A stretch of 38,919 nucleotides of DNA from Candidatus Peregrinibacteria bacterium (GCA_016932495.1 JAFGCR010000042.1:1-38919), one strand, 5' to 3'; shown: positions 18,516-32,272, counted from the stretch's first letter. Notes: generated from the letters alone by a model not told the origin. Program-made: numbers and translations.

Positions 18516-18592
18516 AAAAAAAAGACCAGCAATAGTTAGGAGTTAGGAGCAATAGCAAGCATTTTTAAACTACTATACTACTAACTATTGCT
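18516..18592 (-). terminator. Terminator overlapping the VirD4-like stop codon
   Basis: On the minus strand the 12-nt arms AGCAATAGTTAG (18592-18581) and CTAACTATTGCT (18539-18528) are perfectly complementary and are followed by eight T (18523-18516). The stop codon TAG at 18587-18585 lies inside the first arm. Inside the stem, the word TAGTTAG/GAGTTAG is repeated. Confidence 0.85.
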
Positions 18593-21362
18593 TCTTAGGT
18601 TTATCGGATTTTGGCTTTGGCAATTCGGATTTTGGATTTTGTTTCGTATTTCGGGATTCGGATTTTGGATTTTGTTTCGTATTTCGGGATTCGGATTTTG
18701 AATTTTCCCCTTTAGGTCTGTTCAATTGTTTCTTCCCTTCTTCTTCCAGTTTCTTTTTATCCGCATAGGACGACTGTGACCATCGGTTGATCTTATCTTC
18801 CACCACTTCACGCGGGGTGCAGTACCGTTCGCGCGACAAACGGACGATCTTCTCACGCCGGCCTTCCTCGGGGTTCGCTTCCGGAGGGGGAAGGGTGGAA
18901 AGAGAAAAAGTCTTGCTCGGCATGCCGTCGATCATCAGTTTCGTATAGCAATTATATTTAGGCAGGGATACGATATCGTTCGGCAGCACCTCTTCGGAAA
19001 ACTGGTTGCTGAAATATTCCGCGTCATCAAAGCCGACCTGAAAACAAAGCGATGTGCCCACATTACCGAACACCGCGTCACGCACCTCATCAGGCATCTG
19101 GGCAATATACTGGTTGGCCATCGTGAGGTTGAGCTTATATTTCCGCGCCTCGGAAAGGATAGTGGCAAACGCATCGGTCGCAAAATTCTGGAACTCATCC
19201 ACATACAGATAAAAATCTTTACGATTTTTCTCCGCCGTGTCCGCCCGGCTCATGGCGTCCAGCTGGAATTTGGTGATCAGCATCGATCCGAGCAGGCTGG
19301 AGTTATCTTCACCGATCTTACCTTTGGAAAGATTGATGATGATAATTTTTCCTGAATCCATCATGAAACGGATATTGACTGTTGATTTTACCTGACCCAC
19401 GATATTGCGGATCATGGGAGAAGACAGGAACTGGCCGACTTTGTTCTGAATGGGGGAAATAGCTTCCGTGCGCATACGGTCCTGCATCTTACCGAATTCA
19501 TCGACCCAAAAACTGCGCACCATGGGATTAGTGAGTTTTTCGACAATTTGTTTTCTGTATTTGTCATCCACCAGAATACGCATGATCCCCATCATGGAGG
19601 TATTGGGGGTTTCCGCGAGCGCCAGCAGGCAATTCCTTAAAATATGTTCCAGCCGGGGCCCCCAGCTCTCGGAATACATCTTTTTAAACACACCCAAAAG
19701 ACCGGAAGCGATGAGATTTCGTTTGTGCGGGTCATCCCCGCTTTCCAGCATATTAAAAGCAAAAGGGTGAGAGATATCGGATGGATCTAAAATCACCACA
19801 TCATTGGTACGGCGTGAAGGGACAAAGTCGATCACTGCTTCAGCCAGATCCCCATGGGGATCGATCACCGCCACGCCTTTTTTCTGTTCCACATCGCTCC
19901 GGATCATGTTTTCAAGGAGAACGGATTTCCCCATGCCGGTTTTACCGATGATATAGATATGACGTCGGCGGTCGATTGTTTTGATGCCGAACCGCTGGCG
20001 GTGCCCTCGAAAATTCGTTTCACCGATGAGAGTAAGCTCATCATCCGGCACAGAGCCGACCGCTGGCAGGTCATGAGGCGGTTCCAGACGCCGTGAATTG
20101 ACCCAGAAGACATTAGGCGTGCCGACATCCTTGGAGGGCATATGGTAGATTGTAGCCAGTTCTTCCACATTCAGAATGAGCGGGTTCACGACCAGCCGCT
20201 GCTGGTAACGGCGGAGGATCTGGCGGTTATGCTGGTCGATATGCCCTACCTCCAGGCTGTTCATATTTGGCAGATTGAATTGATGGAAACTGCCCGCGAT
20301 CTCGTTCAATTTCACTTCAGCCAGATCCCGGTTTTCCGGGCGTGGCAGGTAAACGATGCGGATATTTACGTCATAAGTCAGGCGGGTCACTTTATCCACC
20401 GCGGCGACGATGGGGTCTTCCCGGTCATGGGTCCGGCTGACTTGTTCATCGAGCTCTTCTTCGGAAACGCTGCCCTTGCCTTTCGGCAAGTCGCCTGTGC
20501 GGAACCCGCGTATCATCCAGAAAAACAGATAAATGGGTGAATAAAAAAACCGGCGCCAGAACCCACGGGCCAGATAAATATTGGTGGCTAAAGTATTGAG
20601 CCAGAACACACCGGCAAACAACCCGTTGTTTACGATTTTTAAACATTTTAGACCTCGCTTACGCCACCAGTCCCCTGTCGGCTCCATCGTGATCTGGATC
20701 CAGGCCTGTTCATCGGTAGCATTGAGCTTAGAAAGCGTCGCCGTGATGCCGGCCAGAGGTTCCGTGGCCAGGCGGGTGAGTTTATCTTCAAACTGGGGAT
20801 ACCGTTTAATGGGATAAACATAGGGATCGGTCAATTTCATCTCAGCGGTCACCGCCATGTCCATCGCAGACGAAGAAAGTTTGGCTTCCATGGAAGCGTT
20901 CTGGGGCGTGTATTCCACCAGTTCGGAGGAACCGGCGGACGGTTTGGGTTGCGGGATATTCACTTCGTAAACCGCAAACGCTTCTTTGGCGTAATCGGGC
21001 ACTTCCTGGATCTCCACATCCGGATACTGCGCATAGATCTGACTTTCGATGACGTTACGGTATCGTTTGGGCGTCCAGATAAAAAACTGGATCACGTTTT
21101 TGACTGACGCGATCTCTAAACTAAAACGCGGCTTAGGCCGGCCCAGCAGATAATCCGCAAAATTATAATTCTCCTCCAGGCCATGCAGGGCGGAATAGAT
21201 CTGTTCGGCTACAATGGGACCGCGCTCATTGGTCTTGGATACAGCGACACGCAAAACGACACTTCCCATCCTCATGTTGTTCGCGCTAAGGCGCAACGCC
21301 CGGAGGAAATGGAAAAGGAGGTAAAGAAAGCCAATGGTCAGACAAATAGCCAGAACAGTCAT
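18585..21362 (-). CDS. VirD4/TraG-like DNA-transfer ATPase
   Basis: This 925-residue protein has an N-terminal membrane segment (about 3-23), a second hydrophobic region (about 245-285), and a HerA/VirD4-type ATPase domain (about 430-850). The Walker A motif is GKTGMGKS with K479; Walker B is LYVDEFQNF with D722 and E723. Coupling proteins of this kind bring DNA or protein to a type IV secretion machine. The VirB4-like ATPase at 1811 is the only likely partner in the window. The C-terminal tail (about 885-925) is low-complexity and contains two identical 11-residue repeats encoded by perfect 33-bp tandem copies. A strong promoter lies at 21468-21440, and the stop codon is inside a terminator. 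Confidence 0.88.
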   Translation of the reverse strand: MTVLAICLTIGFLYLLFHFLRALRLSANNMRMGSVVLRVAVSKTNERGPIVAEQIYSALHGLEENYNFADYLLGRPKPRFSLEIASVKNVIQFFIWTPKRYRNVIESQIYAQYPDVEIQEVPDYAKEAFAVYEVNIPQPKPSAGSSELVEYTPQNASMEAKLSSSAMDMAVTAEMKLTDPYVYPIKRYPQFEDKLTRLATEPLAGITATLSKLNATDEQAWIQITMEPTGDWWRKRGLKCLKIVNNGLFAGVFWLNTLATNIYLARGFWRRFFYSPIYLFFWMIRGFRTGDLPKGKGSVSEEELDEQVSRTHDREDPIVAAVDKVTRLTYDVNIRIVYLPRPENRDLAEVKLNEIAGSFHQFNLPNMNSLEVGHIDQHNRQILRRYQQRLVVNPLILNVEELATIYHMPSKDVGTPNVFWVNSRRLEPPHDLPAVGSVPDDELTLIGETNFRGHRQRFGIKTIDRRRHIYIIGKTGMGKSVLLENMIRSDVEQKKGVAVIDPHGDLAEAVIDFVPSRRTNDVVILDPSDISHPFAFNMLESGDDPHKRNLIASGLLGVFKKMYSESWGPRLEHILRNCLLALAETPNTSMMGIMRILVDDKYRKQIVEKLTNPMVRSFWVDEFGKMQDRMRTEAISPIQNKVGQFLSSPMIRNIVGQVKSTVNIRFMMDSGKIIIINLSKGKIGEDNSSLLGSMLITKFQLDAMSRADTAEKNRKDFYLYVDEFQNFATDAFATILSEARKYKLNLTMANQYIAQMPDEVRDAVFGNVGTSLCFQVGFDDAEYFSNQFSEEVLPNDIVSLPKYNCYTKLMIDGMPSKTFSLSTLPPPEANPEEGRREKIVRLSRERYCTPREVVEDKINRWSQSSYADKKKLEEEGKKQLNRPKGENSKSESRNTKQNPKSESRNTKQNPKSELPKPKSDKPKKQ
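18623..18710. repeat. 33-bp tandem repeat in the 3' end of the VirD4-like gene
   Basis: Two perfect 33-bp copies (18623-18655 and 18656-18688) and part of a third are made of words such as TTCGGATTTTGG and TTTCGTATTTCGG. The same words build the intergenic palindrome at 33135-33263, so the gene's tail appears to have absorbed an intergenic repeat. Confidence 0.85.
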
Positions 21363-27486: not shown

Positions 27487-27674
27487 TTTTAAATAAGGTT
27501 AGAGTTACAAAATCAATAAAGTTGCGAAAATCGCATACTTATATATAAGCAGACGCTTACCAGATGAATATTACCAAAACACGAACGGTTTTCAAAGGGA
27601 ATTTTAACTTGAAATCCAAATTTTTTGGTGCGAAATCTGATTAATTGTCAAGATAATTTTAAACATATGGAAGA
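27487..27674. other. AT-rich gap upstream of gyrA
   Basis: This stretch holds a short palindrome, CTTATATATAAG (27538-27549), and a lone minus-strand TTGACA (27651-27646) without a convincing -10 box at the right distance. The gyrA promoter is presumably here, but I cannot fix it. The GC-rich DNA of the next gene starts just beyond. Confidence 0.4.
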
Positions 27675-27704
27675 GCCCCGGTCCGATTTTCATCAGACCG
27701 GGGC
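27675..27704 (-). terminator. GC-rich stem-loop after the lipoprotein gene
   Basis: Perfect 9-bp arms GCCCCGGTC (27675-27683) and GACCGGGGC (27696-27704) with a 12-nt loop. On the minus strand only a short TCTTCC follows. Two smaller hairpins lie between it and the stop: CCCG-TT-CGGG (27723-27732) and GCGCGATT-CACT-AATCGCGC (27741-27760). Confidence 0.65.
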
Positions 27705-27759
27705 CCAAGAAGGCAAGATTCCCCCGTTCGGGAACTGAAGGCGCGATTCACTAATCGCG

Positions 27760-30700
27760 CTAGTACGTGAGGGTGTGGGGCGAGAGGTTCTCGATCCGGA
27801 GGTAGTAACCGTTGGTCCAGTCGCAGGACCCGGTGCCAGCCTCGGTCAGTCCGTCGGTCACGGTGGGGTAGGCGTGCGCGTCGGCGGAGCGGTCGCTCCA
27901 CACCACGCGGGCGCCGTACACGTCGATCGACGAGAAGCCGTCCGGTCCGGTGAAGATACCGGCGCCACCCGCGTCGTGAACGCGGCCGGTGTTCGTATTG
28001 GCGTGGCAGGTGTTGGGCAGATCGAGCTCGAGGCTGTCGCCCAGCATACGGGTCTGCACCACGTCGTCCACGGTGGCTCCGCTGACCGTGGCCCCCAGGA
28101 AGTAGTTCTGGCTCGTGCCAGAGGTAATCACCTCCTCCTGTTCGAAGGAGACGATGACCTTGTCGTCCACCTGCACGCAGTTGGCCGTATCGATGAGCGT
28201 GGAACCGCGGTAAAAGTGGAAGTCGCTCAGCGGAACGGTACTGGTTAGCTGGAAGGTGAACCGGCCGAAGCCGACCGACCCGCAGCTCGAGTTGGCCTGG
28301 AAACCGAACAGCGTGTTCTCGCCGTTGACGAGCACCGTGGTGCCGGTGACGCCCGAGAAGTACGGATAGGCCTTGCGCACGAACGAGGGCAGGTACGTGG
28401 TACCGCCGCCCCAGTTCGCGTTGAAGTCGTGCAGCGTGGTACTGGTCGTCTGGCCGACGGCCTCGAAGGTCGCCAGCGTGTTATCGGAAAGCAGACCAAT
28501 GCGGAACGCCTCACCGGAGAGCGCCTCGCCGATCTCGATCATATGATGAGTGTTGCCGGAAATCTCCAGCCGCACCATCTCGCCCGCGGGGACGTAGAAG
28601 CCGAGGTCACGGAACGTGACCTGGCCGTTGATGAGGGGGGCGTACGCCATCTGCTCCACCCCGTTGATGTCGGGGTAGCGAATCTGGACCTGGTTGACCG
28701 CGAGGGTGTCTTCGACACTGTCGCCGAAGCTGCCCGTAAGGTCGTTCACCAGCGTGAGCTTGTTGATCACGAAGTCCTCGTGATCCGCCAGGAAGGCGTA
28801 CGTGGCCCACTTGCCGCCACCGAAGCCGGCACACTCCACGAAGGAGCTGGTCTCCTCGAGCATGTAGCCGAGGGTGCCGTTCTGCTTCACCGTCATGATC
28901 CAGCCGGGGAGGAAGGTGTTATCCTGAGCGGTGTAGCCGTTCACCATCAGCAGGTTACCGTCTGCGTCCTCCGCGTTGACATCACTTCCCGGACGCATGC
29001 TGACCGTGCCGTACAGGAAGAGCTCCTGGGTCGGTGTGTTCAGGAAGTCCACCTTCACGGTGAACCGCGTACGCGTGTCGGCCTCGAACGCGTAGTCGAG
29101 ACCGTTGAAGCGGACGTAGTAGAAGTCGTCCGTATCGGGATCGAACGCGTAGGGGTCGGCACCGTAGTGCACCGCCGGCTGGAGCAGCTCCGGACCGGCG
29201 ATGACCTCGTCCTCCCGGTACAGGGTGGCGCTGGCCACCAGCTGGTTCGCCGGGAAGTCGTCGAACCCTCCGTCGAAACCGCCGGTGTCCGCCCTGAAGC
29301 GAACCTGCAGCGAGCGGAGGACCGCCCACTCCTTGGCCTCGAACTCCATGGTGACCAGCGGAACGGTATGCGCACCCCTGACCGTCACGAGCTCGTTGGG
29401 CCTCACCTGCTGGACGTTGAAGGTGCTGACCTCGTAAACGCCAGTGGCGACGATCGTGACAGGCATCAGCGGCAGGGTAATCTGAACGGGCAGAGGTGTC
29501 ACGAACCCCCACTCGTGCCGGAAGAAGATATGGTAGTCTCCCGGCGCCAGCCCCACGATCTGAGTGGAGCCGGTCCCGCTGAACACCTCGTTCAAGGTGT
29601 CATCGAGAATCTTAAAGTGGCCGCTGAACGCGGCGCCATCCTCGTCCGTCACCTCGACCTGGAGGATCGGGGCGGGGTTGGAGTTCCCGGGCAGGTAGCC
29701 GCCATCGGCGGCCCGCCGGAGGACTTCGTCCATCCAGCAGGTCGTCGCAACGTCGCCCGGACCGAACAGGCCGGTCAGGTTTCCCTGGTCGTCCGTGTAT
29801 CCGCGAATGAGGCCGAGCTGGAGCGCGCCTTCGATCCAGTCGAAGTGCCACGCACCCTCAGCCACGTCATCGAAGGTGGGGGTGGCGGGGGGCTCGTAGC
29901 CCGCCAGACCGTCGATGGCCACCATCAGCATCTTGACAAAGGCAGCCCGGAGAACTGCATCTTCCGGACCGCAGTTGCCGGGGTTACCGCTCGCATCCGT
30001 GTAGGGGGACACGATACCGTCTCCAACGAGGGCGGCCCACTGACAGGCCTGCAGACCGTCCGGGATGTCCGGGCACAGGTTCTCGTACGCGGTCATCGGG
30101 CAGCCGGTGTAACCGAACGCCACATAGAAGGCCGAGACGAGCTCCCGCCGAGTCAGGGCGGGGCAATACGGGTCGTCCAGGCAATAGCAAGTCCCGCCGA
30201 AGCAACGGGGAACGTGAGTCTCGAAGCAATCGCAGTCCGTATCCTCGGTGCAGCCCGGTCCGTCGAGCAGGGTGTAGTTGCCCGGCGCGTAGCTGAAGAG
30301 GTTGTCCTCGGAAAGCGTGAACCGGACGGGAGCCGGCTCCTGGTAGCCCTCGAGGGGCAGGAAGGTGACCGTGTAGTCGCCGAACCAGAGCATGAGCGAG
30401 GCCGTGCCGGTACCGGTCGCGATGCGGTTGCCGTCCTTGGCGATCTCGTAGGAGGCGTCGGACGGATCCACGGCGATCAGCACCCGGCCCTTCGTCGGCT
30501 CCTGCACCTGGATGTCGGTGCAGTGGCAGAGGCCCGCGTTACAGGCGAAGGTGTCGGCCTCGGCGCAGCCGGCGGCGCAGTCGCCGTCGGCCTCACACGT
30601 GAGCGTGACCTCCGTGGTGCAGTAACAGGCGTTGTCACGGCAGGAGGGCGTACCCTCGGTGCAGTTGCAGTCGCTGACGTTGGTGCAGGACGGGAGCGTC

Positions 30701-31299
30701 TCGGTCTCGGTGTTGGTGCAGTGGCACATGCCGCCCTTGCAGGCGAAGGAGTCGGCCCCGAAGCACCCCGCGGCGCAGTCGTCGTCCGCGTGGCACTGGA
30801 GCTCGGCCTCCTTGTTGCAGTAGCACTGTCCGGCCGAGCACGAGAACGTGTCGTAGCCGGCGCATCCATCGGTGCAGTCATCGTCCGCGTTGCACTGGAC
30901 GACCTCCTGCGGGATGGCGTCTGCACAGAAGCAGACACCCGCGGCCGAGCAGACCGCGTTGTCGTAGCCGGTGCACCCAGGGGCGCAGTCGGCGTCCTGG
31001 GAGCAGGCGGGGCGGGTCTCGGTCGTGGTGGTGTTGCAGTAGCAGTCGCCGGCAGTGCAGCTGGCGGTGCCCTCGGTGCAGGTGCAGTCCTCGTCGTCGG
31101 TGCAGGCGGCCTTCACGACCACCTCGGTGCAGGCACAGACGCCCGCGTTGCAGGCGAAGGTGTCGGTCTCGCACCAGTCGGCGCACTCGCTGTCGGTCTC
31201 GCACTGGTTGAGGACGGTGGTGGTGGTCTTGTCATCGCAGCCGGTGAGGGCGGCGATGAGGACCATGAAGCAGAACAGGGCCTTCTTCGAACGGAACAT
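27760..31299 (-). CDS. Cysteine-rich SLH-like surface lipoprotein
   Basis: This is a 1179-residue lipoprotein. It starts MFRSKKALFC and has a lipobox LTGC with C21. Residues about 30-260 hold seven cysteine repeats of about 32 residues with spacing C-x5-C-x3-C-x7-C-x4-C-x-C (some variants); an eighth follows a PEGA-like beta domain. Next come SLH-like segments (FDDVAEGAWHFDWIEGAL), a second beta domain, and a long C-terminal beta-rich part. It should sit on the outer cell surface. The ATG at 31299 is chosen because AAGGAGG lies just upstream; an in-frame GTG at 31323 is poorer. GC content (60-70% in sampled stretches) and codon choice differ sharply from all neighbours, suggesting transfer, special expression, or an assembly join. 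The family is not recognised. Confidence 0.85.
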   Translation of the reverse strand: MFRSKKALFCFMVLIAALTGCDDKTTTTVLNQCETDSECADWCETDTFACNAGVCACTEVVVKAACTDDEDCTCTEGTASCTAGDCYCNTTTTETRPACSQDADCAPGCTGYDNAVCSAAGVCFCADAIPQEVVQCNADDDCTDGCAGYDTFSCSAGQCYCNKEAELQCHADDDCAAGCFGADSFACKGGMCHCTNTETETLPSCTNVSDCNCTEGTPSCRDNACYCTTEVTLTCEADGDCAAGCAEADTFACNAGLCHCTDIQVQEPTKGRVLIAVDPSDASYEIAKDGNRIATGTGTASLMLWFGDYTVTFLPLEGYQEPAPVRFTLSEDNLFSYAPGNYTLLDGPGCTEDTDCDCFETHVPRCFGGTCYCLDDPYCPALTRRELVSAFYVAFGYTGCPMTAYENLCPDIPDGLQACQWAALVGDGIVSPYTDASGNPGNCGPEDAVLRAAFVKMLMVAIDGLAGYEPPATPTFDDVAEGAWHFDWIEGALQLGLIRGYTDDQGNLTGLFGPGDVATTCWMDEVLRRAADGGYLPGNSNPAPILQVEVTDEDGAAFSGHFKILDDTLNEVFSGTGSTQIVGLAPGDYHIFFRHEWGFVTPLPVQITLPLMPVTIVATGVYEVSTFNVQQVRPNELVTVRGAHTVPLVTMEFEAKEWAVLRSLQVRFRADTGGFDGGFDDFPANQLVASATLYREDEVIAGPELLQPAVHYGADPYAFDPDTDDFYYVRFNGLDYAFEADTRTRFTVKVDFLNTPTQELFLYGTVSMRPGSDVNAEDADGNLLMVNGYTAQDNTFLPGWIMTVKQNGTLGYMLEETSSFVECAGFGGGKWATYAFLADHEDFVINKLTLVNDLTGSFGDSVEDTLAVNQVQIRYPDINGVEQMAYAPLINGQVTFRDLGFYVPAGEMVRLEISGNTHHMIEIGEALSGEAFRIGLLSDNTLATFEAVGQTTSTTLHDFNANWGGGTTYLPSFVRKAYPYFSGVTGTTVLVNGENTLFGFQANSSCGSVGFGRFTFQLTSTVPLSDFHFYRGSTLIDTANCVQVDDKVIVSFEQEEVITSGTSQNYFLGATVSGATVDDVVQTRMLGDSLELDLPNTCHANTNTGRVHDAGGAGIFTGPDGFSSIDVYGARVVWSDRSADAHAYPTVTDGLTEAGTGSCDWTNGYYLRIENLSPHTLTY

Positions 31300-31584
31300 C
31301 TCTTCCTCCTTGGTGAAGCGCACTCTTATACTACGGGTCTGGGGAGAAGTGAAAGGTTTATCGAACTCTGTGAGCCATTGCCCATCCAGTTTGTAAAGGG
31401 TAAAGCAAATCTATGTGAATCGGGAGCACTCGCTCAACCGATTAAAAAAAGTACTAATTATTGAACTGGGGGAATCTTCTCTTCTTTCGATTCCACCAGA
31501 GCCTGTTTCCAAGCTCAGTAAAAACCGAAAAGAAGATGTCCCAGTTCAATGGCCTGTTTTTTAAAGATCAGAAAAATGCCAATA
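31300..31584 (-). promoter_or_regulatory. Long leader of the lipoprotein gene
   Basis: If transcription starts from the promoter at 31614-31586, the leader is about 280 nt. It contains a large hairpin: 31460-31490 pairs with 31524-31550 (TTGAACTGGG against CCCAGTTCAA plus a CTTCT/AGAAG part), followed on the minus strand by a T-rich tract near 31448-31442. A second, weaker promoter (TTTCAC, 18 nt, TATAAG at 31331-31326) lies near the gene. The Shine-Dalgarno site AAGGAGG is at about 31312-31306. Confidence 0.5.
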
Positions 31585-31585
31585 T

Positions 31586-31614
31586 ATTTTACAATATTAA
31601 TGTTAATTTGTCAA
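31586..31614 (-). promoter_or_regulatory. Promoter reading toward the lipoprotein gene
   Basis: On the minus strand TTGACA (31614-31609), 17 nt, then TAAAAT (31591-31586). The -35 lies in the word TATTGACA seen before other genes in this window, so it is a promoter of local type in front of a gene of foreign composition. Confidence 0.7.
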
Positions 31615-31698
31615 TACTATTTATCTCTAAAAAACATATAAAAACAATGTCCAAAAAACAATCATCAAAAAAGCCTTTTAAATACCTCCAAAAACCCC

Positions 31699-31728
31699 AA
31701 AAAAAGACTGCCTAAAGCCCTTAAGCAG
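31699..31728 (-). terminator. Terminator of the DUF1003 operon
   Basis: On the minus strand the arms CTGCTTAA and TTAGGCAG (31728-31708) form a hairpin followed by a run of seven T. It overlaps the stop codon at 31723-31721. Confidence 0.75.
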
Positions 31729-32272
31729 CCAGACGCGTAAAAGGCGGAAGTGAATCAAAAAGCTCTAAAATGACCTCTTTCAGCACCGCAGAAGCCTTCT
31801 GCGGGCGGTCATGCTCAAACTGCCCCAAAAAGCGACGCAAGTCATCCGGGTGAGAGCGCATATAACTGATAAGCGGATTAACAAATTTATGGCCAACTAG
31901 TTTATTTTTTTCAAATCGCATGCTATCCGCCAAATGAAGAGCGTCCCAGACATCTGTCGGGATATTATACTGGACTTCTGAAATCCGTTTACGTATCTGA
32001 ATGATCGCTGGCTCATGGGCCAATGCTTTGTCTTCAAAAACCGAAAACAGGAGGTTTGCCAGAAACTGAGCCTGCTGATTGGTGTTGAGTGAGTCAAAAA
32101 AACGCATCAGCTCATCATCTCTGTCCTCATCCTCTTCCCAATGCTCATCATTCAGAAAATAATCCATGATCTGATGAAAATGCTCTTCAAGGCCGTATCT
32201 CCCCTCCGCCGCCTGGATGACGTCGTTTAAGTCGGTAAGAACACTGGGGTTGAAATGGTCGATTTGGGACAT
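31721..32272 (-). CDS. Hypothetical protein, 183 aa
   Basis: I do not recognise this protein. It is soluble, helical and acidic, with a cluster of Asp/Glu around residues 43-54 and helices throughout, and it lacks cysteine or a nucleotide-binding motif. It follows the DUF1003 gene with a 9-nt gap on the same strand and ends in a terminator, so the two are almost certainly one operon. That suggests, but does not prove, a cytoplasmic partner for the DUF1003 membrane protein. Confidence 0.72.
   Translation of the reverse strand: MSQIDHFNPSVLTDLNDVIQAAEGRYGLEEHFHQIMDYFLNDEHWEEDEDRDDELMRFFDSLNTNQQAQFLANLLFSVFEDKALAHEPAIIQIRKRISEVQYNIPTDVWDALHLADSMRFEKNKLVGHKFVNPLISYMRSHPDDLRRFLGQFEHDRPQKASAVLKEVILELFDSLPPFTRLAA

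Follow-up and report, generated by a model that had tools for sequence, protein, structure and literature searches.

The stretch of DNA analysed here, 38,919 nucleotides (nt) long and called the window in what follows, corresponds to contig C9 of a Candidatus Peregrinibacteria genome (GCA_016932495.1; G000), an assembly of 1.175 Mb in 50 contigs that is 98% complete. On its minus strand, at 27760-31299, it carries a GC-rich gene, P0001, which encodes a lipoprotein of 1179 amino acids. Here, we argue that P0001 is probably a native surface-lipoprotein gene, transcribed as a specialised unit on the plan of an operon for ribosomal RNA (rRNA). The leader element that precedes the gene is, as read from its sequence and those of its relatives, an RNA signal that has not been described before and is similar to the one in rRNA genes. 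Units led by this element share the order of their parts with rRNA operons, and by analogy they may work in the same way.

The leader element and its boxA

All parts of the unit lie on the minus strand. The initial annotation had placed a promoter of local type at 31614-31586 and held that it argued for a real insertion or a native gene. We confirmed the promoter (TTGACA at 31614-31609, a 17-nt spacer and TAAAAT at 31591-31586) and agree that it favours a native gene, but the RNA element behind the promoter had been overlooked. This leader element (31458-31571) consists of a boxA-like antiterminator sequence, TGATCTTTAA (31561-31570), and a long hairpin with an asymmetric internal loop. The 5' arm of the 11-bp outer stem, ATTGAACTGGG (31540-31550), pairs with the 3' arm, CCCAGTTCAAT (31460-31470), position 31540 facing 31470. 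Comparison of the regions around homologous genes reveals a common plan, in which promoter, boxA-like sequence and stem with internal loop are followed by the gene, often led by a Shine-Dalgarno (SD) site, and the complement of the 3' loop strand appears soon after the stop codon, followed by a terminator-like hairpin. A similar promoter arrangement precedes the element in many instances in the family, and a large hairpin lies 3' of the trailer in most of them. An AT-rich block that is conserved at four loci (L032, L033, L038 and L051), TTGGTCAATAACAAAA...GTTCA...GAACAAAAAAATGGTTCA, stands upstream of the promoter; this block is possibly an activator site or the end of the element.

A DNA-similarity search for the P0001 leader in its own genome found nothing, and relatives of the leader are visible solely by covariance model. 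We used two such models, R1, which includes the boxA, and R2, which was built without it. Of the 18 genomes of the same Peregrinibacteria family, 11 contain elements detected by R1, 24 in total, with E-values from 1e-17 (3.8e-12 for the element in the window, the sole strong match in its genome). R1 had no match at E ≤ 0.01 in the other 127 genomes of this class. Since R2 recovers the loci of R1, with a boxA upstream there too, the boxA is no artefact of the first model. The boxA core (GYTCTTTAANA-like) is matched in all 24 elements at the aligned position, and this is the published consensus for gamma-proteobacteria (PMC5725501). The same motif is carried by rRNA leaders of the family (TGCTCTTTGAA, TGTTCTTTAAA, TGTTCATTAAC in two instances, and TGATCTTTTGA), where it lies 245-290 nt upstream of 16S in five genomes other than G000.

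That the outer stem is conserved as a helix is supported by covariation. Changes on both sides were found at 7 of the 10 pairs in the first eight sequences and at 9 of the 10 in 25 sequences, an alignment that was fitted to the model and is hence biased toward it; 98% of its cells are paired, and none of 500 shuffles matches its covariation score. Shifting the stem partner by a single column reduced the paired cells to 42-49%.

Nearly all elements precede genes for secreted or lipid-anchored surface proteins. The cargo comprises cysteine-rich/SLH, PDTG-rich, glycine-rich and collagen-like lipoproteins, together with one nucleotidyltransferase-like gene. At one locus (L106, G015:C1:16103-16204), the leader element stands before a heptose/cytidylyltransferase-like gene and no surface protein. 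Boxes of similar sequence (TGTTCATTAACAAC, TGCTCTTTAACAATTAG) also occur in the long 5' leaders of surface-layer (S-layer)-type genes at L035, L036, L037, L041, L043, L044 and L045; the GC content at third codon positions (GC3) of these genes is mostly below that of their neighbours, which is the opposite codon bias to that of P0001.

Complementarity of leader and trailer

As the initial annotation had noted, GC-rich hairpins follow the stop codon, at 27760-27741 and 27704-27675. The first, GCGCGATT-AGTG-AATCGCGC (27741-27760), stands directly at the stop codon, and the second, the terminator-like GCCCCGGTC...GACCGGGGC, is followed by TCTT (27671-27704 in all). The trailer, GGGGGAATCTT (27715-27725), is located just after the stop codon and is the exact 11-nt complement of the leader loop strand AAGATTCCCCC (31468-31478).

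The two strands covary across genes. We anchored the leader-trailer alignment at a motif found independently of the leader, which gave 11 pairs in 13 distinct gene types, with 93% pairing, changes on both sides at 5 of the 11 pairs, and a covariation score reached by none of 500 shuffles. In several relatives, for example, the strands are GGATTCTC and GAGAATCC, which differ from those of P0001 at two positions altered on both sides, and a further case in G008 (GTGAGTCCCCCC and GGGGGGACTCAC) lies beyond the range scanned automatically. The duplex of a leader with its own trailer is stronger than that with the trailers of others (mean -25.7 versus -20.2 kcal/mol; 18 genes; permutation p = 5e-5).

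Leader-trailer complements are not confined to genes led by the element. In the genome of P0001, an NhaA gene (L058 7813-9010, G000:C20) has an exact complement of 16 nt that begins right after a boxA-like sequence and ends behind the stop codon, and a radical-SAM/B12 gene (L144 17397-18963, minus strand, G000:C8) has one of 18 nt in the same layout; both genes are SD-led, with GC3 of 0.72-0.74. The arrangement in P0001 is therefore probably one variant of a wider one. In genes c322 and c503 of contig C45, the complement beside the boxA is just 8 nt long and not significant alone.

GC content and Shine-Dalgarno sites

The initial annotation had singled out P0001 for its high GC, its codon choice and its SD site, and each of these observations was borne out. 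GC content is 0.62-0.67 between 28 and 31 kb of the window and 0.39-0.53 in the remainder, with an abrupt shift at both edges of the gene. GC3 is 0.886 in P0001 and 0.567 in a sample of its genome, for which we took stretches totalling 512 kb; relative to the 341 open reading frames (ORFs) in this sample (mean 0.56, standard deviation 0.08), P0001 has a z-score of 3.8. The codon shift is general (AAG 1.00, GAG 0.92) and differs from the codon choice of ribosomal-protein and EF-Tu genes. An AAGGAGG lies at 31305-31311, ahead of the ATG at 31299. Among the other ORFs of the genome, an SD-like motif is found at 2.8% of first ATGs versus 4.4% of internal ATGs, i.e. without enrichment at starts, despite an intact 3' end of the 16S rRNA (ACCTCCTT). 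On the other strand of P0001, at 28429-31464, there is an open frame of 1011 amino acids, most likely a mechanical by-product of the GC-rich codon pattern.

What did not stand was the claim that P0001 is the single gene of its kind. Three further secreted-protein genes on contig C45 are GC3-rich (0.78-0.90) and SD-led, other SD-led genes of high GC3 are present in the genome, and the two properties coincide genome-wide, including in the NhaA and radical-SAM genes. The C45 cluster (L049 6851-13404) has boxA-like leaders as well; its products are secreted or membrane proteins, one of which has a C-terminus that resembles a beta-barrel and ends in F. Very high expression had also been offered as a cause of the composition. 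The comparison with ribosomal-protein genes that the annotation had suggested argues against ordinary codon selection for expression, since the bias of P0001 is not seen in the ribosomal-protein operon or in EF-Tu, both with a GC3 of 0.531.

High GC is common to the genes led by the element. All 22 of those measured exceed their genome's background in GC3, by 0.22 on average (sign test, 5e-7), where the backgrounds rest on mechanically called ORFs and, for some genomes, on few of them. GC3 of the element genes follows that of the host with a positive offset (rho 0.87), and many of these genes are SD-led. Compared with synonymous shuffles, their coding regions also have more structure (mean z -3.1, n = 17, versus -0.7 for 45 ordinary genes of the P0001 genome), to which the repeats in low-complexity proteins may contribute. 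Within the P0001 genome, boxA-like leaders precede 5 of 10 genes with GC3 above 0.7 and 10 of 290 others (p = 3e-5), and SD sites are enriched in the former too.

The protein and its relatives

P0001 has a signal peptide with a lipobox (LTGC), cysteine-rich repeats, an SLH-like region at about residues 378-532, and a C-terminal part predicted to form beta-sandwich domains. The SLH-like region scores 13.9 bits, below the Pfam cut-off of 20.8, which is passed by homologues in G005 and G017 (34.4 and 48.7 bits). The C-terminal 556 residues were modelled as a row of beta-sandwiches (mean predicted local distance difference test score 73). A fold search with this model gave just generic beta-sandwich matches with template-modelling scores below 0.25, a sequence search of the PDB with P0001 gave no meaningful match, and no relative was found in the viral contigs searched. 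Elsewhere in the window, at 18585-21362 on the minus strand, there is a gene for a 925-residue TraG/TrwB-like type IV coupling protein or HerA-like ATPase.

Origin and role of the unit

Three observations weigh against our reading of P0001. The codon signature is absent from the ribosomal-protein and EF-Tu genes of the same genome, which favour GAA and GAT (GC3 0.53). S-layer-type genes of 1400-1500 amino acids in the family have boxA-like leaders and yet a low GC3, so the boxA alone does not confer high GC. Finally, complements of at least 11 nt between the upstream and downstream flanks are found in 3-5% of ordinary genes of the genome, and the claim of leader-trailer pairing thus rests on the family comparison and not on P0001 alone.

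The initial annotation had offered recent acquisition from a high-GC donor as an explanation. This proposal is weakened, and for the unit as a whole recent transfer from such a foreign donor is unlikely. What still stands, as a possible but doubtful explanation, is that coding regions were transferred to a place under the leader and trailer typical of the family, the donors being high-GC bacteria that use SD sites or a high-GC family member not yet sampled; the SD sites and the high GC would then have been left over from the donor. The generality of the codon shift and the genome-wide coincidence of SD sites with high GC3 would fit such an origin, and the low-complexity linkers (PDTG, GGTGG, TTGGETDST) may resemble those of myxobacterial lipoproteins. 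However, the closest relatives that a pattern-based protein search of limited distance reach found for P0001 are not in a high-GC lineage: anything clearly related to its C-terminal part came from the same Peregrinibacteria family, under the names Candidatus Peregrinibacteria or Patescibacteria. The family genome stretches examined have a GC content of 0.37-0.55, well under the 0.65 of P0001, and the correlation of element-gene GC3 with that of the host is what long residence predicts. Since homologues that are only about 40% identical in protein have a common leader, trailer and architecture, the unit is old. Element-led units are also found directly upstream of gyrA in G015 and G017, as in the window, and close to gyrA in G009. 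The neighbouring gene at 31721-32272 had been considered as a synteny marker and was dropped as too divergent in most genomes; gyrA served instead.

It is unlikely that the leader regulates by sensing a protein or a ligand, in the manner of a riboswitch or by autoregulation, with the trailer competing for the loop strand and the boxA repressing as in Escherichia coli suhB. Such a role is suggested by the internal loop (NCAU / GAUUCY), which is conserved beyond pairing, and by the ability of the boxA in the suhB messenger RNA (mRNA) to repress its translation (PMC5725501). On the other hand, the cargo consists of diverse surface proteins without a common metabolite, and the stem does not overlap the SD site, which is located well downstream. 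Rfam has no match up to E = 5 in 27600-31700; altogether, the Rfam scans at the gathering threshold and at E ≤ 5 reported nothing besides two transfer RNAs.

Still less probable is a role at the level of DNA, in which leader and trailer would be terminal inverted repeats bounding a gene cassette that is mobile or exchangeable. Units with differing cargo do stand in tandem in G010 (4) and G017 (4), and in G001, a genome of the same genus, the promoter region of gyrA is alike but no unit lies between the corresponding neighbours, which makes this a recurrent site of gain or loss of the unit. Nevertheless, promoter, boxA and terminator are all outside the repeats, the repeat pairs vary among genes but match within each gene, G-U pairs included, the leader strand is also part of a covarying hairpin, and no recombinase was seen adjoining P0001. 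Lastly, a wrong assembly join to a high-GC fragment of another organism, which the abrupt edges and the 50 contigs of this metagenome-assembled genome (MAG) might suggest, is hardly credible when the leader, which lies in the low-GC sequence, and the trailer, which belongs to the high-GC side, fit base by base in the family pattern, a second locus on C45 has the same signature, the relatives belong to the same family, and independent MAGs have the same arrangement, upstream of gyrA too.

If P0001 is a native gene in an rRNA-like unit, we suggest that RNA polymerase would start at the sigma-70-type promoter and transcribe the boxA, which probably recruits a Nus antitermination complex and keeps the leader near the polymerase. 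The loop strand of the leader hairpin could then pair with the trailer once the coding region is made, before the terminator. The outcome would be a message with tied ends that is synthesised processively despite strong internal structure and is long-lived, and whose translation would start by an SD site in a genome otherwise barely using them. High GC may be a maintained feature of such messages, giving more structured and stabler RNA, and no trace of one recent transfer.

It is conceivable, and we put it forward tentatively, that these messages form a separate class of mRNA in Peregrinibacteria, one that is rRNA-like, antiterminated by boxA, closed by leader and trailer, GC-rich and internally structured, and the main user of SD sites in an otherwise SD-poor genome; its cargo would be surface lipoproteins and, in the genome of P0001, also an antiporter and a radical-SAM enzyme. 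Antitermination and leader-trailer pairing of the rRNA type are regarded mainly as devices of rRNA synthesis, and our reading, if true, would mean that the device was adopted for surface-protein messages in a tiny uncultured lineage. It would also provide a cause other than transfer for isolated genes with high GC and SD sites, both of which are routinely taken as marks of transfer, and would allow a test of whether bacteria with very small genomes obtain more protein from messages that are structured and tied at their ends.

Comparison with known systems

Our literature search found no paper joining boxA, antitermination and S-layer, and nothing relevant on boxA in the candidate phyla radiation. 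As a protein, P0001 is similar to SLH surface proteins in its lipoprotein signal and in the SLH domain of its homologues, but its group differs from them in cysteine-rich, PDTG- or glycine-rich linkers and a family-specific C-terminal region. Pairing of the two ends of one mRNA is reportedly found in Staphylococcus aureus icaR, where the 5' and 3' untranslated regions pair and mask the SD site; in P0001, about 160 nt separate the pairing strand from the SD site downstream of it.

A boxA within an mRNA leader is shared with suhB and other mRNAs. In the available part of the suhB report (PMC5725501), however, that boxA blocks translation from close by and pairing with a trailer is not described, whereas the boxA of P0001 is some 260 nt away from the start codon, and the hairpin and the SD site stand between the two.

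The closest parallel in layout is the rRNA operon leader, as described for E. coli rrn, which likewise has a boxA downstream of the promoter, a structured leader, and a leader strand whose complement lies in a trailer 3' of the gene (PMC10250234). There, the leader-trailer helix is essential, and in the model proposed, NusB-bound boxA retains the leader strand at the polymerase up to the point where the trailer appears (PMC10250234). The P0001-type unit differs in that it encloses a protein-coding gene and in that its leader strand also forms a hairpin of its own. Its helix has about 8-13 bp (16-18 in the NhaA and radical-SAM genes), whereas E. coli 16S needs a helix longer than 17 bp (PMC10250234).

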